Source: Prosthecobacter fusiformis
GTDB lineage: Bacteria; Verrucomicrobiota; Verrucomicrobiia; Verrucomicrobiales; Verrucomicrobiaceae
NCBI RefSeq assembly: GCF_004364345.1
Contig: NZ_SOCA01000003.1
Coordinates: 372,001 to 436,000 of the forward strand
DNA: 64,000 nt
Reading direction: 5' to 3'
Below, piece by piece: positions 3,877 through 39,192 of this stretch. The position numbers were made by a program, and so were the translations under genes. The notes beneath the pieces were generated by a model that was given only the letters and a program-made list of their open reading frames with translations, did no database searches and was not told where the DNA came from. Positions within the stretch are counted from its first letter, which is position 1. Each line of letters starts with the position of its first letter.

Positions 3877-3966
3877 GGAAGGGTGGCTGAGTGGTCTAAA
3901 GTACCTGACTCGAAATCAGACGTGGGGGCAACTTCACCGTGGGTTCGAATCCCACCCCTTCCGCCA
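3877..3966 (+). tRNA. tRNA-Ser(CGA)
   Basis: The acceptor stem GGAAGGG (3877-3883) pairs with CCCTTCC (3956-3962), followed by discriminator G and an encoded CCA (3964-3966). The D-arm region (GTGGCTGAGTGGTCTAAAG) and T-arm (GGGTTCGAATCCC) are standard. The anticodon loop CTCGAAA gives anticodon CGA, which reads UCG serine codons. The long variable arm is that of a class II tRNA, consistent with serine. The recombinase-bearing element begins just downstream, so this tRNA may mark an integration site. Confidence 0.95.
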
Positions 3967-4172
3967 CTTTCTGAGAGATGAACCAGAAAGTACACTTTCA
4001 GACCCGCGTTTCCCCGCAAACACGCGGCGTCGTGGCTCTCTCAGATTGAGGTGATGGAGGGAAAACCACCTCCTGTTTCCCAATTCCCTCTCGCGTCTCT
4101 CAAACTGATTCAGGTCGTTGTACACTTTCCGGATTTCTGGAATTCTGAGAGGCTTTTTCGAATGGCACCTGC
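3967..4172. other. tRNA-proximal flank with repeated short motifs (possible attachment region)
   Basis: This gap between the tRNA-Ser and the recombinase stop contains an 8-bp inverted repeat ACTTTCTG/CAGAAAGT (3966-3990), directly after the CCA. Two 10-bp copies of GTACACTTTC occur at 3990-3999 and 4120-4129, and two 9-bp copies of TTCTGAGAG at 3969-3977 and 4143-4151, in opposite order. An imperfect inverted repeat (CGCGTTT with AAACACGCG) lies between them. The arrangement could be a recombinase attachment site or a tRNA terminator. I could not find a matching copy at the other end of the element. Confidence 0.3.
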
Positions 4173-5966
4173 TCAGGCAGGTTTCTCATTTTCGAACCCG
4201 AGGTCACTCAGTTGTTGTTTCCAGTCGAGTGAGCGGGGCACCAGGAGGTCCTGCACCTGGAGATGGGCTGGCTGCGTGCCCTGGAAAATCGATCGTTTGA
4301 TCGCTGGGGCGAGATAGGCGGCGTTCAGAAGCCGCCGCACATAAGCAGGTTTGATCCCATGTCGCTCGGTGATGTCCTGGAGCGATTTGTCTGGGTGTGT
4401 GATGAGTTCGGCTCGCCAAAACTCGGCCTGGGCGATGGTCTGGATCAAGGCTGGATTGGGTGCCGTTTCCCGTGTGGTGATGGCCTTGTCAGTCTCGCCG
4501 TCAATGATCTCGCATTTTCCACGCTGGGGCTTGAAGGACACGGATGCTGTGAGGATCACTTTATTTCCCTCCTGCGTCACTTTGGTAGGAATCGGAACAG
4601 GCAGTGTGTTTAGCTCGGCAACATTCGAGGGAGGGGCTGCGGCCAGTTTTGACAGGTGGTCAGCGGTGATGTGGATGGTCAGGGATTCTGGGCCGACGAT
4701 GATCTTGGGGGCAAGTGCTTCGAGCCATTTGGCATATTCAACAGGTGTGGTGAGTCCGGCGAGATGTCGCGCTTGCATGGAGAACCGATGCCGGATCTCT
4801 TCAGCAGTGAGGTCAGCTGGTACAGCCAAGTCAGTGAGTCCTGGCAGCGCATGGAAAAGCATGCGGCGAACCACTTCCTCCAGTAGCGTGGCATTCAGCG
4901 TCTTGAGGGGAGAAGAATCATAGCCCTGGCGGATGGCTTGCTGCGACACGTAGTAGCGATAGCGTTTGCGTGTCTTGGTGCCACCGGCGGCTTTTTCACT
5001 TTTGTTGGTGTAGGTCGGAGTCAGGGCCTGCCCGTCCAGGCCGACGAGGAACCCTTTCAGCGGATGAATGAGGCGGCTTTTGGCGATTGAGATTTCATTG
5101 CGATGACCGCTGATCTTTCGGTAGTCTGGCTGATGCTCTCGCAGCTTGGCCTGGACGGCGGCCCAGACTTCGGTGGAGATGATAGATTCATGCTCACCTG
5201 GATATTCCTGGCCTTTATGCCGGATCAGCCCCCGATACACGGGATTGGAAATCACCCGGTGCAGCTCTTTAGCCACCCAGGCTTTGGATTGCTGAACCCT
5301 GCCATTGCGGCTGACGAATGATTTGGTGGCCAGATTCTGTCGGTTCAGTTCAAGCACCGCCTCAATCAACCCGGTGCTCTCACGATACACCTGAAAGCAC
5401 TTCCTGACGGTTTCAGCTTCTGCCGGATTGATGACCAGTTTGCGATCCCGGACATCGTATCCAAGGGGAGGCACGCCGCCCATCCACATGCCCTTCTGTT
5501 TGGAAAGCGCGATCTTGTCGCGAATGCGTTCGCCGGTGACCTCACGCTCAAACTGGGCAAAGGAAAGCAGCACATTGAGGGTCAGTCTGCCCATGCTGCT
5601 GGAGGTGTTGAACTGCTGGGTGACGGAGACAAAAGAGACTCCGTGTTCGTCGAAGTGCTTCATGAGCTGGGCGAAGTCAGCTAGCGAACGTGAAAGGCGG
5701 TCCACCTTGTAAACCACCACGACATCAATCTTTCTTGATCGGATATCAGCCATGAGTTTCTGAAGGCCCGGTCGGTCCATGTGGCCCCCTGAAATCCCGC
5801 CGTCGTCGTAGTTTTCGTTCAGCGCTTTCCAACCCTCATGCTTCTGGGAGCGGATGAAAGCCGAGGCAGCGTCCCGTTGGGCATCCAGAGAGTTGTATTC
5901 CTGCTCCAGCCCTTCTTCAGAACTCTTTCGTGTGTAAATGGCGCAGCGTTTGATTGATTCAGCCAT
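4173..5966 (-). CDS. Serine recombinase (resolvase/invertase family, large type)
   Basis: A 597-residue site-specific DNA recombinase. The N-terminal resolvase domain (about 1-150) begins RCAIYTRKSSEEGL, with the catalytic serine in the YTRKSS motif. It contains VVYKVDRLSRSLADF and GRLTLNVLLSFAQFEREVTGER, which are hallmarks of the family. A Recombinase domain (about 170-290) follows with GYDVRDRKLVINPAEA. In the region that normally forms a zinc ribbon the cysteine pairs are absent: it reads FLVGLDGQALTPTYTNK and then RYRYYVSQQAIRQG, the variant usually seen beside DUF2924 genes. The gene overlaps the upstream DUF2924 gene by 8 bp and ends beside a tRNA-Ser, so it is probably the integrase of this element. 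Confidence 0.93.
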   Translation of the reverse strand: MAESIKRCAIYTRKSSEEGLEQEYNSLDAQRDAASAFIRSQKHEGWKALNENYDDGGISGGHMDRPGLQKLMADIRSRKIDVVVVYKVDRLSRSLADFAQLMKHFDEHGVSFVSVTQQFNTSSSMGRLTLNVLLSFAQFEREVTGERIRDKIALSKQKGMWMGGVPPLGYDVRDRKLVINPAEAETVRKCFQVYRESTGLIEAVLELNRQNLATKSFVSRNGRVQQSKAWVAKELHRVISNPVYRGLIRHKGQEYPGEHESIISTEVWAAVQAKLREHQPDYRKISGHRNEISIAKSRLIHPLKGFLVGLDGQALTPTYTNKSEKAAGGTKTRKRYRYYVSQQAIRQGYDSSPLKTLNATLLEEVVRRMLFHALPGLTDLAVPADLTAEEIRHRFSMQARHLAGLTTPVEYAKWLEALAPKIIVGPESLTIHITADHLSKLAAAPPSNVAELNTLPVPIPTKVTQEGNKVILTASVSFKPQRGKCEIIDGETDKAITTRETAPNPALIQTIAQAEFWRAELITHPDKSLQDITERHGIKPAYVRRLLNAAYLAPAIKRSIFQGTQPAHLQVQDLLVPRSLDWKQQLSDLGFENEKPA

Positions 5967-6408
5967 GATGGTTCTCCTTCAGTCCGAAAAACAAAGGTCC
6001 TGAAAGATGCTGGCCGGTGATCTTCCGGGCCAGCGCACTCAGGGATTTATAGGTCTCGCCTTCGCAGGCAAACTGACGTGGGCCGGTCACCTGGACCGTG
6101 ATACGTTTGCCCTCCCAGTCGCGGGTGAGCACCGAGCCTGTTTCCAGCGTGATCTTGGGAGCGGCTTTGAGTTCAGGAGCAGCGGTTTTCTGGTTTTGCA
6201 GTGACTTTTCAAACTCGGTCATATGGCGGCGCAATGACACGGTGGTATTTTTGTCGAGCCGCCCAAGCTCCGCCTCCTGCATGCGGTAGGCCAGTTCCCG
6301 AAGGAGACGGTCCGTGCGTGCAGGAGGCGGCTGCCTTCCTGGCAGCTTCCGCCACAAGTACAGCAGTTCCTCTTTGGTTAATTTTTGAAGTTCCTCAATG
6401 GATTGCAT
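5959..6408 (-). CDS. DUF2924 protein, partner of the serine recombinase
   Basis: A 149-residue protein from the ATG at 6408; an in-frame TTG at 6432 would add eight residues. The C-terminal half has the DUF2924 signature: RDWEGKRITVQV, then GETYKSLSALARKITG and GPLFFGL. DUF2924 genes are commonly found directly upstream of recombinase genes of this type in bacterial islands, and the 8-bp overlap with the recombinase indicates translational coupling. The N-terminal half (QKLTKEELLYLWRKL, PARTDRLLRELAYR) is helical. Its molecular role is unknown; it may be a recombinase accessory or DNA-binding factor. Confidence 0.85.
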   Translation of the reverse strand: MQSIEELQKLTKEELLYLWRKLPGRQPPPARTDRLLRELAYRMQEAELGRLDKNTTVSLRRHMTEFEKSLQNQKTAAPELKAAPKITLETGSVLTRDWEGKRITVQVTGPRQFACEGETYKSLSALARKITGQHLSGPLFFGLKENHHG

Positions 6409-6446
6409 TTCCCGCGACACACGCTCTACCAAGGCCTAACATCAAG

Positions 6447-7409
6447 TCATACAGAGAGGTTCGAAGCTAATTGAGACCGCAGGTTCTCCAGATGCCTTGA
6501 GGTGACCCAAGTGGGATCAAAAGCACCAATAGCTTTCCATTTCACACCATCCTCTTCGGGCAGGTCAATTTCACCCGTTTTAGGCGGCGAATACTCTCCC
6601 TGAAGATATTGAAATGAAAACGTTTCTCCACCCATTGCCTCCAAATGTCCCTGAATGTCCGTCCATTCTTCATGCGAATCTTGCAAAAGTTCACCTGGCT
6701 TCTGAATGTAGTGGACGTCTGGAGGGATATCCCAGGTCCAATCATTCAACGCAACCACTGGAATCGCGAATCTGGTCCAACCGCCCAGCTTCTGATGGAG
6801 GAACGAACTCAAGTCATCTTTTCCAAGCCGACGTGTGTTCAATATCATCATGCCTTCCTTCTGATTTTTTAACAGTCGGCCGATCTCGGCAAAATTTTCC
6901 AGCTTGAACCGGTCAAGGCTGTTCATGCTCTGCGGGTTGTCCATGATTACGATGTCACACTTTTTACGTTGGGAGGTATAACCGATGCCTGCATGCCGAA
7001 TGCCTCCGCCATAATTGAGTTCGAGTGTCCGTGAACACTTTGTTATTTTAGTTCGCGGGAAAATCGCACGATATCGTTGGGAACTCATCAGTTCAGCGCA
7101 CCGTTCCTGAATTTCAAATGCGGATCCTGGATCCTCTGACATGATCAGTACTGATTTTCTCGGATCCCGGCCTAGCACCCAGGCGGGAAACGATACCGAA
7201 CAAATGTGGGTTTTCAGATATCCGGGAGGCAGATTGAAAATCAGCCGGTTCATGCCGTGAGTTGGCTCATGATAAATCAACTGAAGGATCTCGGCCATCA
7301 GATCGATATGCCAGTTCCGCAGAAAGAATTCACCGGGATGCAGCTCTCGAAAGGCGAAGTCAATGAAGCTCCTGAACCGCATTCGGTAAATGAACTGCGC
7401 GTCGGTCAT
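6447..7409 (-). CDS. Shortened phage terminase large subunit-like ATPase
   Basis: A 320-residue protein matching the ATPase half of phage terminase large subunits. The opening (RSFIDFAFRELHPGEFF) and the P-loop variant NLPPGYLKTH (about 59-68) are typical, as is the following FPAWVLGRDP. The Walker B strand is CDIVIMDNPQ (about 151-160), where most relatives have two acidic residues; here the second is Asn. The coupling-like segment GMMILNTRRL follows. The C-terminal RNase H-like nuclease domain expected in a terminase of 450 or more residues is absent: the frame ends after LRSQLASNLSV. It overlaps the DUF5681 gene by 4 bp. It may be a repurposed or decayed packaging motor. Confidence 0.8.
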   Translation of the reverse strand: MTDAQFIYRMRFRSFIDFAFRELHPGEFFLRNWHIDLMAEILQLIYHEPTHGMNRLIFNLPPGYLKTHICSVSFPAWVLGRDPRKSVLIMSEDPGSAFEIQERCAELMSSQRYRAIFPRTKITKCSRTLELNYGGGIRHAGIGYTSQRKKCDIVIMDNPQSMNSLDRFKLENFAEIGRLLKNQKEGMMILNTRRLGKDDLSSFLHQKLGGWTRFAIPVVALNDWTWDIPPDVHYIQKPGELLQDSHEEWTDIQGHLEAMGGETFSFQYLQGEYSPPKTGEIDLPEEDGVKWKAIGAFDPTWVTSRHLENLRSQLASNLSV

Positions 7410-7780
7410 GATGCCGCTCCTCGTTTTGCTACGACACGTTGAACCTCAATGTAGGCAATCTTGTCGTCCATGGTTTCCTCGAAATCCTCGAGCTCCACCT
7501 CTTCATCCTGAACCAAGGAAAGAAGCGTGTTTCGAGCACTGGCCTTCCCTTTGATGGCATCGTTCACTATGGAAAGAAAGAGGGCTTTGCGTTTGGTGAT
7601 GGCATTGCCATTCACTGTGATCTTTTCGTCCAGGAGTTCATTCAGAAGCTCGGAGTTCGTTTGTTTCTTCTTAGGTCTGCCTTGAAGATTGCCAGACTGG
7701 CCCTTTTTAAACTGAAACTGCTTGGGAGGCTTTCCGTATCCCACCTCTTCTTCAGCCTCGATATGTTTTTTCCGTTTCAT
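7406..7780 (-). CDS. DUF5681 domain protein
   Basis: A 124-residue basic protein. The segment GYGKPPKQFQFKKGQSGN followed by LQGRPKKK (about residues 14-39) is the DUF5681 signature, usually found in small proteins next to phage terminase genes. It overlaps the terminase-like gene by 4 bp (ATGA) and follows the methyltransferase gene after only 4 bp, so the three genes form one operon. By position it could be a terminase small-subunit analogue that recognises DNA, but this is inferred. Confidence 0.8.
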   Translation of the reverse strand: MKRKKHIEAEEEVGYGKPPKQFQFKKGQSGNLQGRPKKKQTNSELLNELLDEKITVNGNAITKRKALFLSIVNDAIKGKASARNTLLSLVQDEEVELEDFEETMDDKIAYIEVQRVVAKRGAAS

Positions 7781-7784
7781 GGTA

Positions 7785-9110
7785 TCAACGAGAAGCCTTG
7801 TTTTTGTAGGTCATGCCAGATTCAGCGTGGATTGCATCCTTGCCCGTCCACTCCTGCCAACGTGTGATGGCCACATCGACATAGCGCGGGGACAGCTCGA
7901 TCCCGTGGCATATACGTCCGGTCTTCTCCGCGGCGATAAGAGTGCTGCCACTGCCGAGGAACGGGTCCAAAACGATCTCGCCACGTTTGGAACAATCCTT
8001 GAATGCATCTTCGATCATGGCCACTGGCTTGATGGTTGGATGAAGATTGAGCGCTTCTTTTCCGCCTTTGTCTCCGTCCGATTCCTTCAGGTGCATGACG
8101 GAAGGGTAATTCCACACATTGGTGCGATGCCGTCCATGCTGGCCTAACTCGAAGTGGTTCTGATGTTTTCCCTTACCGCTCTTGAACACGAAAACAAGCT
8201 CGTGCTGGCTTCTGTAGAAGGTTCCCATTCCTCCGGAGTTCTTGTTCCATACGCATAGGTTCTTCCATTCCGAATAGACATTCTTGCCTGCCGAAATCAG
8301 CTCTGGAGCATGACGCCAGTCCATGCAGATGTAATGTATGGATCCGCTCTTTGAAAACTTGGCCAAGTGGTCAAAGACCGTTTCTAGAAACTCTTGAAAT
8401 TGAGTGGAGGTCATTTCTCCTGCTCCCATGGCAAAGTCTCCGTGGCTTGCCTCACAAGTCTTGCCAATATCCTTGGCGGGCAAGTTATAAGGGGGATCGG
8501 TAAATATGATTGACGCTCTGTTTTTCCCTGGAAGGAGCGTCTTGTATGAGCCGTATTCAAGGCTGTCGCCGCACAAGATACGATGCACACCCAGATGCCA
8601 AAGGTCGCCAGTTTGAACAATGGCTGGAAGCGAGTCAGCCGCTGGCACGGGTGGCTCTTCTGAGGATGATTCATCTTCCAGAGCGAGGAGGTTTTCGATT
8701 TCACCATAGGCGAAGCCGGTGACTTCGAGGTCAAAGTCTAGATCGAGATCGGAAAGAATTTTGAAGTTCTCTGCCAGGAGAACGTTGTTCCATTCCCCGT
8801 TTTCGGTCAGCCTGTTATCGGCGATCATGAATGCATGGATTTTTGCATCGTCGAGATCGTCTGCACGGATGGTTGGCACTTGGTCTATGCCAAGTAATTT
8901 GCAGGCGGCTACACGGCCATGACCGCAGATCAACCGGTTGTTTCCATCAATGAGGACAGGCACTTTAAATCCAAAGGTTTGGATGCTGTCGGCGATCTGA
9001 CGGATCTGCTTTTTGCTGTGTTTACGGGCATTGTGCTGATGAGCGACCAGCGTGGATACGGCAATGGATTCAATTGAAGGAAGTGTGTTCATGAAAGGCG
9101 GTGTTGACAT
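7785..9110 (-). CDS. ParB-like nuclease domain fused to DNA adenine/cytosine-N4 methyltransferase
   Basis: A protein of about 441 residues from the ATG at 9110; another in-frame ATG lies at 9092. Residues about 18-110 form a ParB-like domain (HNARKHSKKQIRQIADSI, then the box ICGHGRVAACKLLG). The second half is a DNA methyltransferase with the catalytic motif DPPYN (about 205-209) before the SAM motif DPFLGSGSTL near the C-terminus, the beta-class order. The segment HPTIKPVAMIED is typical of phage-type methylases. Such ParB-methyltransferase fusions are frequent next to terminase genes in prophages and islands, probably protecting or marking element DNA. It leads the leftward operon ending in the recombinase gene. 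Confidence 0.92.
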   Translation of the reverse strand: MSTPPFMNTLPSIESIAVSTLVAHQHNARKHSKKQIRQIADSIQTFGFKVPVLIDGNNRLICGHGRVAACKLLGIDQVPTIRADDLDDAKIHAFMIADNRLTENGEWNNVLLAENFKILSDLDLDFDLEVTGFAYGEIENLLALEDESSSEEPPVPAADSLPAIVQTGDLWHLGVHRILCGDSLEYGSYKTLLPGKNRASIIFTDPPYNLPAKDIGKTCEASHGDFAMGAGEMTSTQFQEFLETVFDHLAKFSKSGSIHYICMDWRHAPELISAGKNVYSEWKNLCVWNKNSGGMGTFYRSQHELVFVFKSGKGKHQNHFELGQHGRHRTNVWNYPSVMHLKESDGDKGGKEALNLHPTIKPVAMIEDAFKDCSKRGEIVLDPFLGSGSTLIAAEKTGRICHGIELSPRYVDVAITRWQEWTGKDAIHAESGMTYKNKASR

Positions 9111-9524
9111 GCGGGCATGGATTGCCCGGTTAGATTTGTGCGCCCTGAATTCGGGCAAGCAGAACCATCACGGTTTTAGAGCCGCGATTTGACAGTAGTC
9201 AGGTTCAATAAGAGGTCTTTGAGACCTTTCCTGCCTTCACACTCCGAGCACCGCTCGGTGTAGGGGCACCGCCCCTCCATGTGACGTTCTGAAGGCACCG
9301 CCTTCAGGATTTTGGAAACATCGTTATTTGAAATCTGAGGCACTTTATCAGATGCGGGCTTTCACCCACACACAATTTCAGTGACATAACCATCGAAGCA
9401 TCGTGAAGTTAATCGTGCAAGCAATTTTCGTTCTGAAGACCATTTTTTTGGTGCTGACCAGCTCTATGCCAAACCAATTGTGTATCGCTGCCTGGCCACG
9501 CCGTATTGCATGGTTTCAGCGATA
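9111..9524. other. Non-coding interval at the right side of the mobile module
   Basis: No gene is supported here. It holds a cluster of three hairpins (annotated separately) and probably the promoter of the leftward operon, although I cannot assign promoter boxes with confidence. No obvious copy of the sequences flanking the recombinase end was found. Confidence 0.4.
9244..9307. repeat. Three consecutive hairpins sharing a CACCG loop
   Basis: Three perfect small inverted repeats stand in a row: CCGAGCACCGCTCGG (9244-9258), AGGGGCACCGCCCCT (9262-9276) and CTGAAGGCACCGCCTTCAG (9289-9307). The stems differ in sequence but all surround CACCG. This suggests compensatory selection for structure around a fixed loop, or a REP-like element cluster. 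No poly-T follows, so they are not simple terminators. Confidence 0.6.
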
Positions 9525-10976: not shown

Positions 10977-12113
10977 TCACTCAACCGCACGCACTCGTAA
11001 TCGCCGCAGGGAAAAAAGTTCGTTATCGCATTCGGTGAAGCGACGGGCTCCGTCTTTGCGCTTCGGTCCAAAAAGTTCACGGTTTTCCTGGAACACGCTC
11101 TCGACGAATTCCTTGCTACCTAAAACGAGGCCGTCGCTGAAGTAGCGCACGCGCAGGCGGATGAGTTCGGCAGGACTTAGCTTGCCTTTCTCGGCCAGCA
11201 CTTGACGGGCTTTTTGGATGCTGATTCCGGGCCGGGTGATGTTCTCATTTTGGGCATCGCGCACTTCGTTTCCGCTCGCAAACAGCAGGCTGCGATAGGC
11301 CTCCGCTGCATCATGGGAATTCCATCCGTCCATCGGCTTGGCGACAGCTTTGCATAGGCCGCGCTGTGCTCTTCGGCTGCCGCTGATGGCCTCAGCATAA
11401 CCGCACCAGCGGTAGTCTTTGGGATCATCGACTAGCTTGGCGCGGACGGGGTTCAGGTCGATGTAGGCGGCCATCGTCCGCAGTGCTTCGCCACCGCTTT
11501 CGACCATGACGCTTTTGAATCGGTCCATCCACAAGGTGCCTCTTCGGCCCCGGCGTTTGTTGAACCAGCGGCTGAAGCGTTCTTTGACTTCCTTGACGAA
11601 AATGGACAGGTCGCAAAACCGCTTCTTGATGGCCTCAAGCTTCTCCTGGACCCGCGTTTCCAGGCCCATCCGGCGAAGCTCCGTCAGGTCCTGACGCAGG
11701 AGTCCAACATAGGTTTTAATGTAGAGAATGGCCAGATGCTCCAAAAGCTTTTCCTCCCCTTCCGGACCGGAAAACCGCTCCAGTCACGCCTCCCTCTTTG
11801 GCACCTCCACGAGCAGGTGGAAGTGATTCCCCATGAGGCAGTATGTGACCAACTTTACCCCGCAAAAGTCCGACAGCCGCCACATCAGGCGCTTGAGAGC
11901 CTCCTTCTCCACATCATCAAAAAAGACCTCGCCACCGCAGGTGCGCGACATGACGTGGTAGCAATAACTCTCCATCGGTCCCCTGCCTACGACTCGCTTA
12001 CGTCCGCCTGACCAGGATCGCGCGGCAGGATAAGGGGCGGTCTTCGCATTGATGCCGACAAGCTGGGTTTCGAGTTCGTCGCGTTGCGGATCAGGGGTTT
12101 GAGTCGCTTTCAT
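10977..12113 (-). pseudogene. REP-associated (RAYT/Y1-type) transposase with internal TGA
   Basis: One frame of 379 codons runs from the ATG at 12113 to the stop at 10977, broken only by a TGA at 11786-11784. The N-terminal part has the family motif ESYCYHVMSRTCGGEVFF and the HUH motif GNHFHLLVEVP (about residues 97-104). The stop falls in KREA*LERFSGPEG, where a Trp codon (TGG) would fit. Beyond it come LEHLAILYIKTYVG, RRGTLWMDRFKSVMVE and AYIDLNPVRAKLVDDP, typical of the IS200-like tyrosine transposases that act on REP hairpins. The C-terminal extension after about residue 260 is also seen in Verrucomicrobia and Planctomycetes relatives, as far as I recall. It is probably inactive unless the stop is read through. 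Confidence 0.85.
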
Positions 12114-12145: not shown

Positions 12146-12188
12146 ATGCCTGGCATCTTTTTTTCATGCCAGGCATCTTTTTCTTTTT
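12146..12188 (+). terminator. Tandem-palindrome terminator
   Basis: ATGCCTGGCAT (12146-12156) and its exact reverse complement ATGCCAGGCAT (12166-12176) enclose a T-rich loop, followed by CTTTTTCTTTTTTT. Each arm is itself palindromic around one base. It would terminate rightward transcripts and lies between the transposase start and the end of the immunity gene candidate. Confidence 0.6.
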
Positions 12189-12194
12189 TTATTC

Positions 12195-12590
12195 CTACTT
12201 GTCCTCCAAAACTGTAAATCGTCCCAGCACAGCAGCTTTTAGATTGAGCCATGCCGCAAATTCAACACTTAAATCAATTGAATTTCCCACGGCCAAACAT
12301 GTATGGCCGGGTTCTACCATAATATCAAAGTGATCTATATTATTACCTTCTTGGGGTGGATAAACGGTTAGATCATGATTCCCCAAGACAGCCAAATAAG
12401 CTTCACACTCGTCGAAATGGTCAACCTTATCAAGATTCACACCAATTGTTTGTGACAAGCAGCAAGCTACCTCATCTGCAGGTCGATTGGAGAATAACTT
12501 TACGTAGCATTCATATTTTCCTCCATCCGGAGCATTAGTCGAGAAAAAAGATTTGGGAGTCTCCCCTGAGTAATTGTTTTCTGATTTCAT
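12195..12590 (-). CDS. Candidate immunity protein for the giant RHS toxin
   Basis: A 131-residue acidic soluble protein with no signal peptide. Its ATG lies inside the last codons of the giant gene, overlapping it by 56 bp; no later in-frame ATG was seen, so translation is probably coupled. The sequence (GGKYECYVKLFSNRPADEV, HFDIMVEPGHTCLAVGNS, LNLKAAVLGRFTVLEDK) matches no family I recognise. Position directly after a C-terminal RHS toxin domain, small size and AT-rich composition are the classic traits of polymorphic-toxin immunity genes. A role as antitoxin or immunity factor is inferred from context only. Confidence 0.65.
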   Translation of the reverse strand: MKSENNYSGETPKSFFSTNAPDGGKYECYVKLFSNRPADEVACCLSQTIGVNLDKVDHFDECEAYLAVLGNHDLTVYPPQEGNNIDHFDIMVEPGHTCLAVGNSIDLSVEFAAWLNLKAAVLGRFTVLEDK

Positions 12591-13480
12591 CGTGAGTATA
12601 AATCCTGAATCTAAAAAACTCTGGGCGCAAACCTTGAAACTCAGGAAGGCTCCTTAGTGTCTCGTCGAATTGTCTCTGTGCAGCACGAACGCCGTCAATT
12701 TTAGTGCCCCAACGTTGTCTGACATTGCCTTTCCAGGCCTTGGCCATCTGATCGCTGACAATAAATGCGTCAACATCAAAGTCAAACCTGTTGAAATCTG
12801 CTCCCTTCACCGTTGTCCCACGTGCAAGACTCCCTCGATACCCAACTAGAGCATTTGGATCGATTTGCTTGGCGAATTTGGTATCAATAACATCTGCAAG
12901 CTGTGTTTGGATGGATGTTCTATCATATCCCCAATTCGAGCGTCCGTACCCAGAAATAACCTGATCACCGTTTTGATAGCGGAGTCTTCCAGCGCTGGAC
13001 AATTCGGATCTTAACGGGGCCAAAGCAGCCGTCCTGAGCGCTCCTAAGCCATATAGATTCAAGGCAAGATCCTTGGCTGTCTCCGCGGCCAGCACTCCTG
13101 TCTCCAGTATTCCGACAGTTGCCCGAATATTGCGTTCGCGGCGCGACATCAGTCCCATGTCCGCCAGAACTCCTAATGCTTCTTGCCCGTTTCTTTTATA
13201 GGCTGCGGCTGTGGCAATCGTCAGAGGATGCTCGGTCCCCATTTCTTCCGAAAGATTATACGCCGTTGTACTGAATATGTTTGATTCATTCGGTATTCCT
13301 AACTGAGAGCCACCAACACCTGTCTGCTTCATGATGCTTGCTGGCGTATGCACCGCACCACCACCATACCGAATGATATGTTGGTTCATGCTATCATTCA
13401 GCTGAAACCTGTTCATCTGCGACATCTCATACTGATGGTAGAATGATTCTGCCCGATTGATTTCCTGCTGCATCCGCCCA
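12535..13480 (-). other. Variable toxin tip of the giant protein with nucleotidyltransferase motif
   Basis: About 315 residues follow the RHS core (after YDYAGGDPVNFMDPDGR). A helical linker comes first (ATVGILETGVLAAETAKD). Near residues 8775-8800 the stretch GYRGSLARGT, then DFDVDAFIVSD, matches the GS...DxD active site of the polymerase-beta nucleotidyltransferase fold (acidic residues Asp8796, Asp8798 and Asp8800). Such domains occur as toxins in polymorphic systems, modifying nucleic acids or proteins. The tip is visibly richer in A and T than the rest of the gene, as expected for a swapped cassette. The exact target is unknown. Confidence 0.7.
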
Positions 13481-16400
13481 TCCGGGTCCATAAAATTCAC
13501 AGGATCTCCCCCGGCATAGTCATAGAGGGACATGCTGGCTCCGTGGCCTGCGGGATCAGGGGACAGGAAACGACCGCTGCCCGGCTCGTAATAACGGGCG
13601 CCGAGGTAATAGAAGCCCGTGACGTCCATGCGACGTCCACGCCAGACAGTGGATTCAGCCAGCGAACCGATGACAAAGCCGGTGTAGGTGGTGGTCAGCG
13701 AGCCAGGCGCAGGGCCATAACCGGTGCACTGGGTAGTCTGCCAGGACACGGTGGTGACGGCCGTCGTTTTCTGCTCGATCTGGCCGACGATGTTGCCGTA
13801 AAGATCTTCGACCAGGGCCGTCCAGAGACCGGTGGTATCATCCAGCAATGCCTCCATGCCGCCGATGCCGTTATGACCACCATAACTGCCGCTGCTGTCG
13901 GGTCCGTGGACTTTCCAGAGACGCTCCTGCCGGCTCAGATCGCTGCTGGTCGTGGAGTTACTCAAGCGTTCCACAGCCACTTCCAGGAATTCATGAAGCG
14001 GATCATACCAACTGCGCTCCTGCTGAGTGGTGCCGGTCACCAGACTGCCCGCCACCTTTTGAGTGATCTCCGTCTGGATTCGACGCCCCAGGGCATCATA
14101 CCAGGCCTCCCAAACGTACCCCTTGGCGACATCCCCGGTCACACCGATGCGGGCATGCTGGGTTTCCACGACTTGTACGAGACGGCCAGCATAATCCCAG
14201 GTGAGGTTTTGGATACGGGTCTCTGTGCTGCCGACTCTGAACGTGCGGCTGGTCACCAGACCTTCGGCATTGTAGCTGGTCTCAATTTTCTCAATTTTCT
14301 CCGGCTCCACCTCACGAGGGATCGCGAATGCCTGCATATCCTGCGCGGTAGAAACCTGCTGGTTTGGCAAGGCCATCGTGGCCTGAGCCCGCAACTGGTA
14401 ATCAAGCTCGGAGGGCCTGAGCCTCATGATGGCGTCCCACTCCGGAGGTGTGGTCTTAAGATTGACCGGTGACACCTGCACACGGAGGGAATCAGGGAAG
14501 CCTTCCCCCGCACGAGCGAGATCGAGCTCCACCATGTCCGGACTCACACTTGTGGTGCCTTCGGCCGCCTCCATCCGCCAGGCATCATTGCCAGACTCAT
14601 TCAGGACGCGGGCGAAGCCGTTGATGGAAGGGCTGCCGACGGTGTTGTGAGCGGTAGCCACTTCATAAGTCCCGGGTGCCTGCACCTTGGATCGTGTCCG
14701 GATACCCAGCCCTGTGGCATCAAACTCATGAAGAAGAAGCCTCGAAGTTCCGGCGAGGTAATCACCGGGGAGGGCTGCTACCGCCCCGCGCAACGGCATC
14801 TCCGAATATCCTTCACTCAAGAGGCGGCGACGTTTGTCATACTGGTAATCCCGGGTGTCCTTCCAGGCAGGCATGCCATCTCCGACATCCTCTCTCCAGG
14901 CTTCATACTTCTTCTGCCGATCATCATCGGTCCAGCTGAGAGCCTCTCTAAACATGGCAGAAGCGACCGTTCCGTTTCGGGACTGGGTGACAATCTCTTC
15001 GATGCGCCCCCGTCCGTCACGCTGGGTGATGTCCTGGATCCGCCAAGGATTCGTTTTCTGCTTCAGGAGACCGTCTGCCTCATAGAAAAACTCGAAGTCC
15101 TTTCCAGCCGAGCCGATCTTTGAAAGCCTGCTATCTGCGCCCCAATTAAAGGTATAAGCCCCCCCATGGCTAACCTCAAGACCGGCTTTAGCGGTCAATG
15201 GCACTTGAAGGGCCGAACGGCGGCCGCTCTTTTCATCATAGACATTCTCCAGGCTGCTGACTTTCTCGGCACCTGCAAAAACCTCTTCCTTTCCGATGCG
15301 GCCGTGGCTGTCGAACGTACGTTCTAGCGTCGTGCTGATCCCGCCGGAGACGGTTCTGGTGCTGTGGGTTGCTGTGCCACCGACCGTTTCAATGACGGTC
15401 CGGGCCATGCCACGGGCGTCGTACTGAGCGTACTCACGAGCGATATTGCGGCTGCTCTCAATGCCTGAGCAGGAATAAAGCGAGATCCGCCCGAAGTCAT
15501 CGTAGCTGAACTTATGAGTAAGCGGGTTGGATGAAGAGGCGTCCTGATATTGCGTTTCCACATCCAGGGCTCCTGCCCAGGCATGCGGCTCAGTGGAGCT
15601 GTAATAGCTCTGCGTCCGCAGCCTCTGGGTGTCTGTATTCGCCACCGCCTGAAGCTGTGAACCGGCCGCAAATGCGGGCGGTGCAGCTTTCAGGTAGCTT
15701 GCCGTCGGACGCCCGGCCAGGTCAGTCAGGCTGACCTGGGTGAGCCCCCCGGGCATGGTGTAGGCAGTGAACATGCCGCTGCGGGATCCGCTCGACGCCT
15801 CAACCACCATTTCATTGGCGTCGATGAAACCGTAGTGGTAGCTGCTGGTCTTGAGGTCCGGCAACTCGGTCTGAACGACGCGGTTTAGCGCATCGTAAGT
15901 CATCCTGGTGACAAGCTCGCTGGTCACCTCGTCCTGGATACCCATTTGACCTTTGCTGATGACTTCGACAGGGTTTCCAGCCGCGTCATAGACTGTCCTC
16001 GCCATTCCGCCGCCGTTAGGCAGACTGAGGACGGTTTTACCACTGACATCGGTATAGGTCGTCCCCAAGAGCCTTTCAGATCCGGCTTCTCCCTGATAGG
16101 TGCGGGTCCAATTCTGCAAAGGATCGTATTCCGTCCGGGAACGCCTGACGGTTCCGGCCGTCGGCACGAAGGCTCCAGATCCCGGGGAGGGAGCGGAGAA
16201 CACCGTCGTGACCGTCGGCCTACCCAGAGCATCCAGTAACGTCTCCGTCACTTCCACGTTACCTGCCGTTGCGGCCGGACGGTAGCTCGTGGTCTTTTTC
16301 GCTTCAGGGTCATAGATGTGGTGGACGGCAGCATGGACCGGACCTCCAGGACTGTGAGGCTGGCTTACCATCAACGGTCGGCCGATTTTGTCGTAGCTAG

Positions 16401-19400
16401 TCGTGGTCTGATAACCCGCGATGTCCTTGCTCAACACAACCTGGCCACGGGAGTTGGTCTTGGTAACTTCAGTGCCGAGAGGTTCGGCCGAATCCGCACT
16501 GCGGATGGTTTTGGTCACGGTGTTCGCCGGATCGTTGTAGGAAAACTCTGCCCAAGTACCTGGAGTCAATTCTTGTACGGCCACTCTCCCGTCGTAGAAA
16601 TAGGTGGTTCCCAATTTAATGCCATTGGCTCCTATGACGTAGTAGGGCTTACCTGTTGCGGTTGTCCCCGTTTCTGTGGTTGCGCCCGCAGCATCCTGGA
16701 TGCGGACACCCGCCTCCCGCAGGTAATAATCTGTCTCAGTTACCGGATTAAAATCCATAGAGGATATGGCATCGTCCGCCACCGCTCCTGAAGTTTTGTT
16801 GACACGGTATGCCAGATATTGTGTGGTTTGCTGGCTTAACGGTTCTGCCGATCCCTTTGCAAAAGCTCGCGATTCAATGACACGTCCCATCCGGTCATAC
16901 TTCGACTCGCTATAGTTCCCGCGTGGGTCCGTGGCTTTGACGAGGTCGCCGAACAAATTGTATTCGTTGGTCACTACCGCAAATAAGTCAGCACCTGGCA
17001 CTGCCTCCACGCCAGAACCATCCTCCTTCGCACGGCTTCGCCAGCTTGTCTGCTCGACGGCACGGCCCATGCCGTCATAACGCGTGAAGGTATAATCCTC
17101 CGGATTGGAACGTGACCCGTCCGTCCACTCCACTTCCCCGTTCAGGTTGTAGTAGGTGTAGTTCCAGGCCACCTGTCTGCCGTTGGCGTCTAGACGCTCC
17201 TCCCAGATCTGGCGCCCCATGTCATCATAGGCATAAACCGTCTTCCGCCCGGCAGCATCCTTCTGCCAAATCAATTCATGACGGTTGTTATAGACAAAAG
17301 TGGTCTCCACATCCGGAACAGCTGTGACGCCGCTGTATTGAATTTGCCGGGTTTTCAGCCCCTTTGTGGTGTATTCAAATTTGGTGTGGGCAAAGTCCGG
17401 GGTCCCTGAAACTTCCTTGCCAACATAGATATCGGTCAGCACTCCGTTGGCAAAGGGACGTGTATCGTAGCCTGCGTCGGCGTAGATGTTTTTGGTTTGT
17501 CCAAGAACTGCATAGACACCGCCTGCTGCTTCGGCAGACTGGGTGATGACACTTGGCAAATAGGGATAGTCCACTTCATCGTCCTCCCCATTATAGATAT
17601 AATCCGTCTTCATGGTCACGGCAGGGGAACCTTCCATACCTGTATTCGGCACCACCATGGTAATCGTTTTCGGCAGATCCAGAAGACCCGTTTTTGACTG
17701 ATGTCTGGAAGGAATGTCGGAAAGTTGCAGATAGGTGGTCTGTGTGCTCAGGCTTTCGGTGCCATCCAGGCCATCAAGATCTCCCGTCATGGTGGTCTTT
17801 TTGACATTGCCCCGGGCATCATACTCAAAGGTGTTTTTAAGACCTTTGGAGTCCACTGCCTCCTTGGTGCTGCGCGCGTAGCCGTGAGTCTCTCCAGCGC
17901 TGTACTCCGACCAGCTTTGTTCATAACCGTTTGCATCCCTCATGTTGGTCATGAAGTTATACTTGTAGGTATAAGTTCTGGCGCGCCCGTAGGCATCATA
18001 AACCTTGGTAATGCCATGATAAAATTGGCCATTTTCCTTATCGATCGAATAATCTGGAGTTCCCGATGAGTCGTAACTGGCCCTATACCGGTCCATAGCG
18101 CTGTAGTCAAAAACCGCCGTGATGACCTCGTCGTAGGACTCCTGAACAGGCTCGCCAGCCCTTGAGGAATCATAGACGGTATAGGTTTTCGAAACCTTCG
18201 GAGTGGCCTTCGTTTCTGAAACAACCGTGAAATTCACCGTCGGCGCAGCGCCGCCAAGCCTGCCTGCGGTGCTCCTCTGCACAATCACACGACGGAGGTC
18301 ATCATATTCATTGGACACCGTCCGTCCTTCTGGGAAGAACTCACGGTCAATCATGTGGGTGGAATAAGTTCCTTTTTTGCCGTTTTCATCGGTTTCCTCC
18401 TTTAACTGGTAGGAATATCGGAAGACGGAACCGTCGGGTCTCTCCACTTTCTCTAAATCCCCGTATTGGCTGTAGGTGTATTTGACCGCCCGGCCGTCCG
18501 TGGAGACGATTTCTGTCACTTGGGCATGGCCGTCGTAATAAAAAGTGACCGCCTGTCCGCTGCTGCTTTTAATGGTACGAATTTGGCCAAATTCCGGATA
18601 GAATGCTGACTCGTAGTAGCTGAATTCAAGATAGTTACCGGCATGGTCCATCCATCTATGGAGATAAGGCCTCTCTCTTTTGATGGAATTATCGACCGCG
18701 AACTGCCTCATTTTATATTCGCGGACGCTGCCATTGCGGGAAGTGAGTTCATAGATCGTCTCTGTCCCGACCTTTTTCTTAGTTATCGTGTTGTGCTGCA
18801 GGCCACGACCGTCAGTATTGACGAGTTCAGGATTGTCCTTCCATGTCACTTCCCACTTGGTGGGATTTGAACCAGAACCCGCAACCGGTGTATACTTCAG
18901 GACGGTCCCGTCCATTTCCGCTCCCATGAAGGATTTATCGCCTTCGGTGTTCGTTTGCAAATAAGGCATCATGAAGAACAACCAGCCATAGCCCATCATG
19001 TTATGCGCCTCATTGAGAGAAGAATAATGCCGCCGGATTTGCAGAGGCAGAGCCCCTGGCAAGGTCAGATCCACCGCATCCACATAAAAGGCCCCTGTCA
19101 TGCTGTTGACGGGATCAGCCACCGTCGGCTGCATGACAGTATTTTGGTTTCCGAGGTCCCCGCCGTTGATGGAGGCGAGTGACAGCTCCTTCAAGTCAAA
19201 ACCTAGCATGTCGGCATAGCGTCCATAGCTGTACAATCCACTGATATCCGAGGGCGCAAAGTCATAGAGGCTTCCACCAATGCTCTGCCAGTAATCGCTA
19301 AACCCAAAAGTAGAACTTCTCCAGTTCCTGGCCATGTCCCAGCCGAACAGGCTGTCATTGCGACTGCTTAGCCAGGAAGTATCGAATGCTGAGTAGCCAC

Positions 19401-22400
19401 CTACATCTGCCATCATTAAGCCTGAGTAATCAACGTCCGAGCCACTTGCAAAATTCAAACCCACGCCGCCTGTTGCGCTTGCCGCGTTGGGGCCCAGGAT
19501 GAACGCAGCTGTGCCGCTCCAGGTATTATTGGCCCCGTTGACCTTTCCGGGTGTCACATAAGCGGTGACGAAGCTTGGATCGCCATAAGTTCCACTCGTC
19601 ATCGAATTCACGACCATCTGCCACTGCCGGGGATTCCAATCCTTTAACTTACGGGTTGCCACGGGATTCAACCCGCCTTTCGGATTGACGTGGGTGTATT
19701 CCACCTCCCCAGCAGCCGCATAATTTGCCGCAGTCAGGGCGATCACCGGTGTTTCAAGGGCATTTTCGTCTCTTAGTTGACGGTGCAGAAGGTTGATCGT
19801 CGAGATCGCATCTGTGTCATCTTTCGGATAGTACCGGTCAATGGTAATGTGCTCCAGAGCCGACTGCTCAAGATTGATAAACGCAGCTGCTTCTGCGGCG
19901 ATCATACGTCCGCGTCCTCCCGAGTCTGGACGCAGATCCCAGGCCCCAGCAAAGGCCGTGCGGCTTGAGAAGATGTCCAAAGCCGGAAGGCTGCGTTTCT
20001 TCGTCTCAGGATCCTGACGGAGCTGCGCACAGCCCCAGTTACGGAAAGTGGCCGGAGACAGCTTGAAAAGTTCCGATATCCGACGCAGAGAATCCGCCAT
20101 CCGCTGATGATAGGTCATTCCCATTTGGTGGACCACGCTCACCGTCGTACCTTCATCACCGTTTGTTTTCCGGTCATACCAGAATTGGTCTTCATTCGCA
20201 CGTTGCATGCGCTGGCTGACGCGCCCCACATTCAGGCAGAATGCTGAAAGCGTATCGAGAGGATATTCTACAGTCTGCGATTCTTGCAGAACCTCACGGA
20301 TTCCCAGATAGCTTTCCGGTTGGGATTGGGCAGGAGAGCCTGCCCAGCTACGATGCCGCTCTGTAGCGACACGCAGGCTGTAAAACGTCGCTTTGGAACT
20401 GCTGAAGACCTTGTGCTGTGCACCCAGCAGGAAAGAGTCTGTGCGGGCACCTTTATCGATATAATAGGGATCCACATAGTCCAGATTGTAGGCAAAGCCG
20501 AGTTGGCCGTTAAAAGTACTGGTGCGGTTACGGTTGAAGTTACCTTGCGTATACCCGGGCCGGAACTGATGAAGATGGGCGGTGACCCCGTTGGCCTTGT
20601 TATCAAACCAAAAACTCCTGTTATGCAGGTCGGAAACATTAAACGGCCCCAGCTCGCCAAGACGGAGGGCGAGCCTGGTAAACCGCTTGCCAAGAGTAAA
20701 TCCGGCTTTCGATTCGCTGGCGTCAATAATGACCGAGTTTCCAGAGATACTCTTGATAGTCGCGCGGCGTGTTCCGTCCGATGGCTGCTGGTCGTCGTCT
20801 AGAGTGACCGAAAGACTGTTCACCAGCCCACCGATCTCAAGACCATCCTCATCGACCTGGGCAATCAGATCTCCGACTTTGAACGCGGTGGCTTTGGAAA
20901 ACACCAGTTCAATGTCGCCATCGTCTTCTGTGTTGATGGCTAGAAGTGCGTCCATCACAAGAGGAGCAGCCGCCCGCGCGTAGTGTGCACGGATTTCAAA
21001 AGTCATTTGGTCAAAGAGACCTCCGACATCTTTGTACGACTCAACAACCCGTGGGAGAAGAAGATGTTCATCTCCCGAACGCCGGATGCGATGCCCAATG
21101 GCAAAAAGGTCCATCGAAGCAGTGCCACCCAATTTGGCGGTATAGGTCAATGTGTCGTCCGTCGTATTTTTAGTTCGGTGCAAGGTCTGGATGACAACGG
21201 GCAGGTTTTCACCCGTGACCGACAGCCCATCCGGCGAAACCGGAACGACAACCTGCCCCACAGCAAATTTACCCAGAGGATTTTCATTCCTGGTCTCGGG
21301 CGCGGTCACACCAGCAATTGGCTCTGAATTTGGATCCAAACAGGCCACCTCAATGGTCACCGTCCGTTCTGCCGAATTAACCGCCGAAATCACACCGTTA
21401 CTGACAGTCGAGCTGGTAAGACCACTAGCAATCGCGGTTTCATAACTCAGGAATGGCCGAGGAAGGTCGGTCCAATCAGAGTAATGATGCTTCCTCAAAC
21501 GGCTGGTGTATCCAAAGTCTCCCAGCCTCATAGCCCGGAACTCAGGCTTAGAAGCCAGAAACTCCCCAGCTTTCCGTTCCAGCGTCTCAAGTGGGCTTTC
21601 CTTGATTGCGGCATCGTCGTAGATGCGATTGTCGCGCGCCAGATAGGCCTTGACCCAGGTAAGCGGTGAATTGATTGCCTTACGAGCAGGGGTCTCTCCG
21701 TCTGTCGGCTCCTCTGGGTGCTGATACACCTCCCACAGGTCACGTCCTTCTTTGACCTCCATGTCCTTCAGCCATGGGAAAACGGATACCCATTCATCTT
21801 CAATGTAGGCGGCGACATAGGGATAGCTCACAGCGATCAATCTCTCTGGCAAAACATTCCCTTTGGAATCCGGCACACCATGCACCTGCATGCGCAGAAG
21901 ATTTGACACCGTGCTGTCGAGCAAATGCATGGTTCCCTCTTGTGGGAAGAGATAAGTGGCCGGGATTCCGGCCTTGCGCAGCAGATAAACCAACAACGCA
22001 CATTGCTCCTTTGGAGAGCCCTGGCGTTCCTGGAAAACGCCCACCGCATTCCGGTTTAGGCCACCATCGTTTAAGGAGCGTTCATAGACACGGCCATTCT
22101 CCTTGAAGGCCACCATATCAGCGAGCTCGATCTCATTAATAACGAAGTTAACAAGCCGCAAAGGGTCACTTTCCATGTCTTCCACAAAGGCATCCAGAAT
22201 TGGGTGACGCAGCAGTTCTGGCGAATGATCTAACTGGCTCCAGTCATCTCTCTGGGAGGAACCGCCGTTGAAGGCGGTACCGTTCGGCAGCAGAGCCCCG
22301 AGGGTGTAGCAGTCATAAATGCCACCAGTCGATGATTCGATCGAGCAATCAACCAGCAGCGAGCCGCTGCTGGCTGCAGCCGCACGGTGGACGATGCTGC

Positions 22401-25400
22401 CATTGCGATAATAAGACACGACCGTCCCCACACGACGGATGACATACCAGTCTGTGTCTGCAGCGGTGCCTAAATCATTGACCTGTTTGCCGCTTTCGAT
22501 GATCCTGATCGTCGGGAAGCCAGTTGTCGATTTGACCAAGGCTATGCCATAGTCCAGATCATTCCAGTGTGCGGTTCGGTTGATCAAATTAAACCCGACC
22601 GCAGCTTCGACACCCGGGGTGAAGGAGAACTTCACAGCACCATCTTTGGGGACAGCAGCCAGGCTTTCAGCATCGCTATTCCATATCACTCCTTGGATTG
22701 AGGACGATTTACGCAGGCCACCTCTTTTTCGTTCAGCTTCATCTGCGTTATCATCGCCGGTGCCGCCACTCCGGGTCAGACGATGACGCGTCCAATAAAC
22801 TGGGATAACCTCATTCAGATCTGTAGCAGTAGCTCCCATGGCCATTTTCCACTCATCACGGATCAAATGCCCGTTCGCAGGAGGAATGGCGTTCTTACCT
22901 TGAAGAGAGGTAAGATTGCTCGCCTGACTCAGCTCCCAGTCATCGGGCAGATCATCGCTGTCTGAATCACACCAAGTATACTCGACGGCGTGGGTGCCAT
23001 TCAGGCTTGATGTCACCGTCGAAGCCACCCATAACGGCTCATACACGGTCTGCGGGAACGTGTAGACGGGTGCATAGTGAAGGTAGGTAGGTGAAGTATT
23101 GCTTTGATACCCCATCCAGACAGTGACCTTGCCGCCTCGTCTCACCAACCCGAAATTAGGAGCGTTATCAGCGTCGCTGGTGAGGTAAGGTTTGACCTTG
23201 TCTTCAGAGACAGCCCCCCGGTAGTGTGCTGTCGCCACTCCCTTTGCGAAATTGATCCCAAAGTCAATGGTTTTAGCCGCAGTCTGAGCAACGCCGCCTG
23301 TTAGACCAATAGTGAACGAGGGCTTAGGCCCCGGAACTTTGAACCACATGGCTCCATCACCCCAAATCGCATGCTCGCTACGGTTTCCATTCCACTCAAC
23401 TTCGGTCAATTTACCGCTCCGTGGGTTCAGCGGATCAGTTCCAGCTGCAGCTTCTTGAAGATTGGTGGCACCATCAGCCCCTGCCGTGTCGATATCTTCC
23501 TCAGGGCTGAGCGTGGTATTCGTTCCGGCCGCAGCTATCTCCACAGTATTCAGGATCCCGTCATTATCCTCATCGACCTCCGAAGTTATGATGGACCGTA
23601 AGAGAGCTCCCTTGCTGACTACACTGGTGGAGTTGCTGTAGACGGAGACATCAGCGACGTAAGAAGGAGACGGCGTGAGCGCAACAACCGTCAGGAACTT
23701 GTAGCCATCCCGGAGATAGCTGACGGACTTTTTCACCTCCCCATTGACAATGTTGCTGTCGATTTTCAACCCCAGGCGGGAGATTTCGTTCAGCGTGCCA
23801 TGAACTGGCCATTCAACGCCATTGGCGACAACATTGAACTCAGTTGCGGAGGTCTGGAAACCAAAATCGAGGTCACTGTCCGCAGGACTGTCATTGCTCG
23901 AGGTGATGCCTGCGCTCATGATCGCTCCGGGAGCGACCTTGAATTCTACAGTGCCGCCTTCAGGGATTACCAGCCTGGACTGAGCGTCTGAATCCCAACC
24001 CTTACCGGACGAACGTACGAGTCCGTCCTTGCCCTCCGTCGGGTCCAGCTTACCACGCAGCCTTACCCACTCAGGGTAAAGAACCGTCGCGGTTGCCGGC
24101 TCATCATAAACGGCATCATTGCCGTGCGCGAAGTAGCTCTCAGACAAGCCGACCGTGTAACCATTGCCAGCGTCCACAGCCACCGCTTGAGCAAAAAGAT
24201 TGGCTGTTTCAAGAACAGGGAATTGATGAATCGCCACACCGTCCACCCAGACACCAATTTTCCCGCTGCTGCGCACAAGGCCAAACTGAGTGTTTGGCGT
24301 GTAGGCTCCCAGGTAAGTCTGGCTTTTCAGATCCAGCTTGTTCAAGCTATCCGCTTTGTTTCTAGAACATGCCCATGCCCGGCCACCGCCACTATTCCGA
24401 GAGGCCACGGCTATCGCTCCAGTTCCGCCGCCGCCAGTGAACCCCACCGTGGGTACTGATGTGTAGCCGCTTCCGCTGTTGGTGACAATGACGGCACCAA
24501 CACCGAACTTGACAGTGACAATCGCGCCAGAGCCAGTCCCGCCGCTAAGGGCCACAGATCCCGTCGGCGGGACCGTGTAAATGCCGCCATTGTAAACAGA
24601 GAGCGTGACGATTCCTTTCGTCGAGCTTACTTTATCAACTCGGAACGCAGTAGGCATCGTGCTCGTTCCGCCAGGAAAGGTTAGAATGTCCCCGACCACA
24701 TAGTTTGTGCCTGCCGAGTTGATGGTGGTAGTACCAACAGCTTTCAAGCTCGTCGTGGCTGAAGCTTCGCTGCCTCCACCTCCAGTAAAGGTGACACCCG
24801 GACAACTGGTGTAACCGGTACCCGGTGCTTTCACTGAAATTCTGGTGACAATGCTACCGACCTCATCAGGCAAAAGGTAAACGCCATAGTCCACATCTGT
24901 GGTGGCTCTGGTAAGGGTGGATGAATTTTCATAGGCATCAAAGCCGACCACCAGCCTGCCAGAATGCGCAAAGCCCTTGAACCAAAGAGCTCCATCACTC
25001 TTCAATTTCTGTCCAGGCGTTGAGGTCTGGTAGGCAGAGGAGGCCGAACTGAACGAAGATGACGTCAATGCCATGGCTCCTGTCGTGGCATTTCCGATCT
25101 CAGTTCCTCGCGCTATCCATGTTAATTTAGCGGTAGAATTAGCCCCTGCTGGCGCGCTTACACTGGCTTTTGAACTTGAGGCAAACTCCTGGATGTTGGT
25201 AAGGCCGTCAGAGTCAGCATCCGCACCTGCTCCTTTATCCGGGAAGTTGAAATACTGAGTGTAAGTCGGCGTTCCGGACAAGTTGCCTCCTAAATCGGAT
25301 TTTTCCCACTCATCCAGCATGCCGTCTGCATCCACATCACCACTGGAGTAAATCCGGCATGAGCTAATTCCAGCGCTCTCAGGTACTAAGGAGCAATCCA

Positions 25401-39168: not shown

Positions 39169-39192
39169 AAAATTATAGATCCAGCTGATCAA

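Follow-up and report, generated by a model that had tools for sequence, protein, structure and literature searches.

The Ntox45 domain is an RHS-linked toxin of the alpha+beta type that has a DxD motif, occurs in actinobacteria, alphaproteobacteria and bacteroidetes and is listed without an immunity family (Zhang et al. 2012, PMC3482391). It has been placed with the Pol-beta nucleotidyltransferases (NTases) (PMC5512222), and NTase-type tips on RHS proteins are therefore no new idea. NTase-related toxin domains of the RelA/SpoT type are likewise found on polymorphic toxins (PMC3482391), and MenT toxins transfer a nucleotide to tRNA (PMC11375011). Photorhabdus Rhs1 provides the architectural parallel, as it combines a YD-repeat shell with an exchangeable C-terminal toxin that follows a DPxG motif (PMC8636562), a layout shared by the protein analysed here. 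In a 64-kb stretch of Prosthecobacter fusiformis DNA (hereafter, the window) we found a toxin-immunity pair that is new, both of its families being new within this well-known type of bacterial weapon. We hold with reasonable, though far from complete, confidence that the locus represents a polymorphic RHS toxin system in which an exchangeable tip of the NTase type is paired with a cognate immunity protein encoded by an overlapping gene.

The carrier is a giant RHS (YD-repeat) protein, whose gene (39192-12535, minus strand) is an open reading frame of 8885 codons. Translation probably starts at the ATG at 39168, ahead of the signal-peptide-like MKLMSFSLLVLSFLLLAC, and the N-terminus resembles a signal peptide or lipobox. 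The presence of RHS/YD repeats is evident from Pfam matches (DUF6531, E=4e-15; RHS_repeat, E=5e-14). The RHS shell region begins with DUF6531 (18943-19116, minus), and the RHS core ends with DPDG (13477-13488, minus), where the homologous cores of relatives diverge; the residue that follows DPDG is R, not L. In the approximately 6700 residues before DUF6531 (window 19200-39192, minus) Pfam recognised almost nothing. This part consists of repeated segments with DxDxDG stretches resembling calcium loops and includes, as judged by eye, a transglutaminase-like segment. Three more RHS genes are present in the same genome (C1:114597-116309, C1:241095-243236 and C2:868649-869710, in frames of 1968, 3032 and 2081 aa).

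When the end of the RHS core was used as a query against 68 genomes belonging to the same family, strong matches came from seven, one being the window's own genome. Wherever the end of the protein was readable, the relatives' cores remain alike as far as DPxG, beyond which they continue into differing tips of at least four kinds. In L023, L027 and L028 a HINT domain is combined with another tip, whereas inspection by eye pointed to an ADP-ribosyltransferase-like tip in L020, HExxH-containing tips in L021, L025 and L026, and yet another tip in L022, where the next gene is SMI1/KNR4-like. Most of these tips are then followed by a small gene that differs as well. In L020, L021, L022 and L025 each tip precedes a different small gene of its own, maybe its immunity gene.

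The tip itself has its only relative among 72,556 plasmid records (tblastn) in a distant bacterium, the soil betaproteobacterium Eleftheria terrae. The matching protein is of the RHS/LysM type (WP_301261020.1, plasmid NZ_CP106953.1), with 34% identity over residues 206-313 of the 314-residue query (E=2e-7). We assembled 321 ORFs from the relatives' RHS loci and the E. terrae locus as a BLAST test set. In this set the RHS core was 46-63% identical to RHS proteins at seven loci of relatives and matched the E. terrae RHS at chance level alone (E=4.8). The last ~108 residues, by contrast, matched only E. terrae (35%, E=1e-11), as did the small protein encoded behind them. Thus, toxin and immunity gene have travelled together. 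Relatives share the core without the tip, while an RHS protein with an unrelated core shares the tip together with the downstream gene; this criss-cross is what the exchange of a C-terminal cassette would leave behind and strongly supports the swapped toxin-immunity cassette that an earlier note, made from the DNA letters, had proposed.

The carrier in E. terrae has LysM and an RHS core that lacks a significant match to that of the window. The GS and DxD motifs are conserved between the tip and this homologue, the only one found, although a long insertion separates them in E. terrae. A gene of the SIR2 family and a nucleoside 2-deoxyribosyltransferase gene adjoin the E. terrae toxin gene (L008:20325-22483), an arrangement that looks like a defence module.

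The E. terrae match also changes the presumed extent of the toxin. According to the earlier note, the tip comprised 315 residues. Since the match starts 205 residues in and continues to the C-terminus, only the last 110-150 residues make up the toxin domain, and what precedes it is a linker of about 200 residues from the core to the toxin domain (12865-13476, minus), unmatched in the E. terrae protein. The C-terminal toxin domain common to both proteins (12538-12864, minus) has a predicted NTase fold, judging by sub-threshold profiles discussed below. The two motifs reported near the C-terminus of the giant protein are indeed there: GSLARGT (12814-12834, minus; residues 8787-8793), the predicted NTase GS loop, and DFDVDAF (12763-12783, minus; residues 8804-8810), the predicted metal-binding DxD strand. 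The strict motif of GS, spacer and DxD arises in 0.4% of shuffled tips and occurs once in the whole 8885-residue protein. The tip and the small gene are also as AT-rich as had been claimed. The GC content of 12195-12970 is 0.439, whereas 776-bp windows average 0.545 (sd 0.031); of all stretches of this length in the 64 kb, the one with the lowest GC begins at 12151. GC3 falls from 0.67 in the RHS core before them to 0.42 in the tip and 0.36 in the small gene.

Elsewhere in the window, tRNA-Ser(CGA) (3877-3966) adjoins a gene for a large serine recombinase (4173-5966; Resolvase/Recombinase), near which lie DUF2924, DUF5681 and a ParB-methylase fusion (7785-9158). The region 3877-9158 looks like an integrated mobile element; an exact search did not find a flanking repeat of the tRNA.

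The small gene (12590-12195, minus) starts with an ATG and encodes 131 aa. It begins 56 bp within the toxin gene, exactly as the earlier note had it, so that the two reading frames overlap at 12535-12590 (minus). By inspection, a possible weak ribosome-binding site, AGGA, lies 12 nt before the ATG (12603-12606, minus), and there is no alternative in-frame ATG, GTG or TTG in the ~30 codons after it. Among the 321 ORFs, the 131-aa protein is best matched by a 128-aa ORF of E. terrae (31% over 58 aa, E=2e-4), the second-best match having E=3.6; as a single comparison the E. terrae match gives E=5e-7. Neither of these two small proteins is matched by a known family. The PLSDB gene table, itself incomplete, does not list the 128-aa ORF, which overlaps the stop codon of the homologous toxin by 4 nt instead of the 56 bp seen in the window. 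The sole homologue of the small protein found thus sits behind a homologous tip rather than away from RHS genes. It could be argued that the small ORF overlaps the toxin gene by chance or is unrelated to it, as its sequence match is limited to 31% over 58 residues and no known immunity family was matched in Pfam or NCBIfam profiles. Such an explanation is very improbable. The match is exactly to the ORF overlapping the stop codon of the homologous toxin, it is the best of 321 and has E=5e-7 as a single comparison, and the reading frame is intact in both the window and E. terrae. Because the gene has been co-inherited with the tip across distant lineages, immunity is by far the best reading of it, and we conclude from this one independent pair that the 131-aa protein is very probably the cognate immunity protein. 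Its family could not be recognised when the locus was first inspected, and it is one that has not been modelled before.

For the tip, a 154-aa domain served as the query in searches against NTase profiles. In Pfam its sole match was NTP_transf_2 (E=0.054, short of the usual limits), and in PADLOC nothing matched but a pair of CBASS oligonucleotide cyclases, at E=0.0025 and 0.015, likewise short of the limit; six shuffled versions of the domain matched nothing there. In NCBIfam the top match was an unrelated T3SS needle protein (E=0.019), followed by an archaeal CCA enzyme (E=0.14). By hhalign, the tip aligned with SMODS cyclases from related genomes at E=0.0022, and eight profiles with shuffled columns scored 0.29-0.66. 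GS...DxD is where each of the NTase-superfamily profiles aligns (NTP_transf_2, the PADLOC cyclases, the CCA enzyme and SMODS), yet no NTase profile reached a curated or usual limit in Pfam, PADLOC, NCBIfam or hhalign, and the E. terrae homologue on its own matched no NTase model in Pfam or PADLOC. Acids conserved after DxD in the two members are D102, E127, E138 and D147 of the 154-aa domain, none of which could be placed on the strand expected to provide the third catalytic acid of an NTase. Structure prediction from a single sequence was of no help: the AlphaFold models reached a pLDDT of 41 for the tip and 33 for the 131-aa protein, and Foldseek found no relevant match. The NTase-fold active-site pattern suggested earlier therefore stands as far as the conserved GS...DxD and the concordance of the profiles at this site are concerned, but every profile match is sub-threshold. 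Taken together, the concordant profiles and the conserved motifs make an NTase fold of the tip likely.

These data leave some room for a toxin tip with a cognate immunity protein whose enzyme is not an NTase. In that case GS and DxD would be part of some other alpha+beta fold, for example that of a nuclease whose metal site has DxD. Polymorphic toxin tips are very commonly nucleases (PMC3482391), and the lack of a significant NTase profile, the unplaced third acid and the failed single-sequence structure prediction would all fit. On the other hand, three profile libraries and hhalign independently put models of the NTase superfamily on the same motif, and shuffled sequences do not attract them, so we consider a non-NTase enzyme possible but rather unlikely. 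It is harder still to see the tip as a degenerate or inactive remnant devoid of toxic activity. Apart from the third catalytic residue, what might suggest decay is an IS200-like (Y1_Tnp) transposase gene located directly downstream of the immunity gene (window 10977-12113, minus), its frame being broken by a stop near 11785. However, the toxin frame is intact across 8885 codons, and both motifs as well as the immunity frame are conserved with a distant homologue, which makes an inactive tip highly doubtful.

Two members of each family were found. In scans of the same phylum that covered as many as 388 genomes, no copy was genuine except that of the window. Single-protein searches of genome contigs with the tip and the small protein, searches of viral contigs with the two-member profiles, protein searches in phages and a DNA search in E. 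coli genomes gave no match, and searches of the PDB by sequence and by profile returned noise only. The weak matches from the phylum scans that were discarded as chance include one within a repetitive adhesin-like locus (L004), two antisense to a metabolic gene (L006) and a glycosyltransferase gene (L046), respectively, and one with E=0.045 (L007).

Within the favoured scheme of an NTase-type tip and its cognate immunity protein, we infer the chemistry, target, delivery and neutralisation as follows. The giant carrier would be secreted or anchored at the cell surface, its YD-repeat shell presumably enclosing the C-terminal end, and the tip may be released by aspartyl autoproteolysis near DPxG, by analogy with Rhs1 (PMC8636562). 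Delivery from the surface appears more likely than by a type VI secretion system (T6SS), given an N-terminus that resembles a signal peptide or the signal of a lipoprotein. The last 110-150 residues would act as a small Pol-beta-type NTase, in which GS and DxD bind Mg-NTP, and inside the rival cell would transfer a nucleotide either to RNA, such as tRNA ends, or to protein. In the producer and its kin, the 131-aa protein would bind and block the tip. A more speculative scheme, to which we give very little credence, has the tip as a delivered cousin of CBASS cyclases and the 131-aa protein as its dedicated blocker. If true, the nucleotide signal made by the tip would trigger or mimic the rival's own abortive-infection response.

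Toxin-immunity pairs that have not been modelled are a source of new antibacterial enzyme chemistries. In the present case, a clean natural swap between distant lineages defines the minimal toxin domain, its likely active site and the cognate inhibitor.

How, then, does this pair relate to the known systems? In RelA/SpoT-type toxins the layout of GS and DxD differs from that of the tip. Neither their profile nor that of AbiEii/MenT appeared among the tip's Pfam matches at E<=10, and we rejected membership in both groups. For the MenT and AbiEii NTase toxins, cell poisoning by nucleotide transfer has been proposed (PMC11375011), as we propose for the tip, but they act in the cytosol, as modules of toxin-antitoxin or phage-defence systems, and belong to another sequence family. 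CBASS oligonucleotide cyclases (CD-NTases; SMODS, PF18144; PADLOC Cyclase) share with the tip a GSxxRGT-like loop followed by DxD and provide its best sub-threshold profile matches. However, they are cytosolic defence enzymes of 300-450 aa, whereas the tip is a short RHS end in which no third acid was identified, and we saw no CBASS genes next to it. Rhs1 is delivered by a T6SS; the 8885-aa carrier has a predicted signal peptide, and no T6SS adaptor was recognised in it. Ntox45 was not among the Pfam or NCBIfam matches of the tip by name. By its published description, however, it resembles the tip in being an RHS toxin domain of alpha+beta structure with DxD, general-secretion-type carriers and, probably in the case of the tip, Pol-beta NTase likeness, and the tip may be a relative of it. 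The two differ in the lineages from which Ntox45 is listed and in that Ntox45 has no listed immunity family and the tip has a candidate immunity gene; if the tip is Ntox45-like, a toxin family published without an immunity family would gain one.
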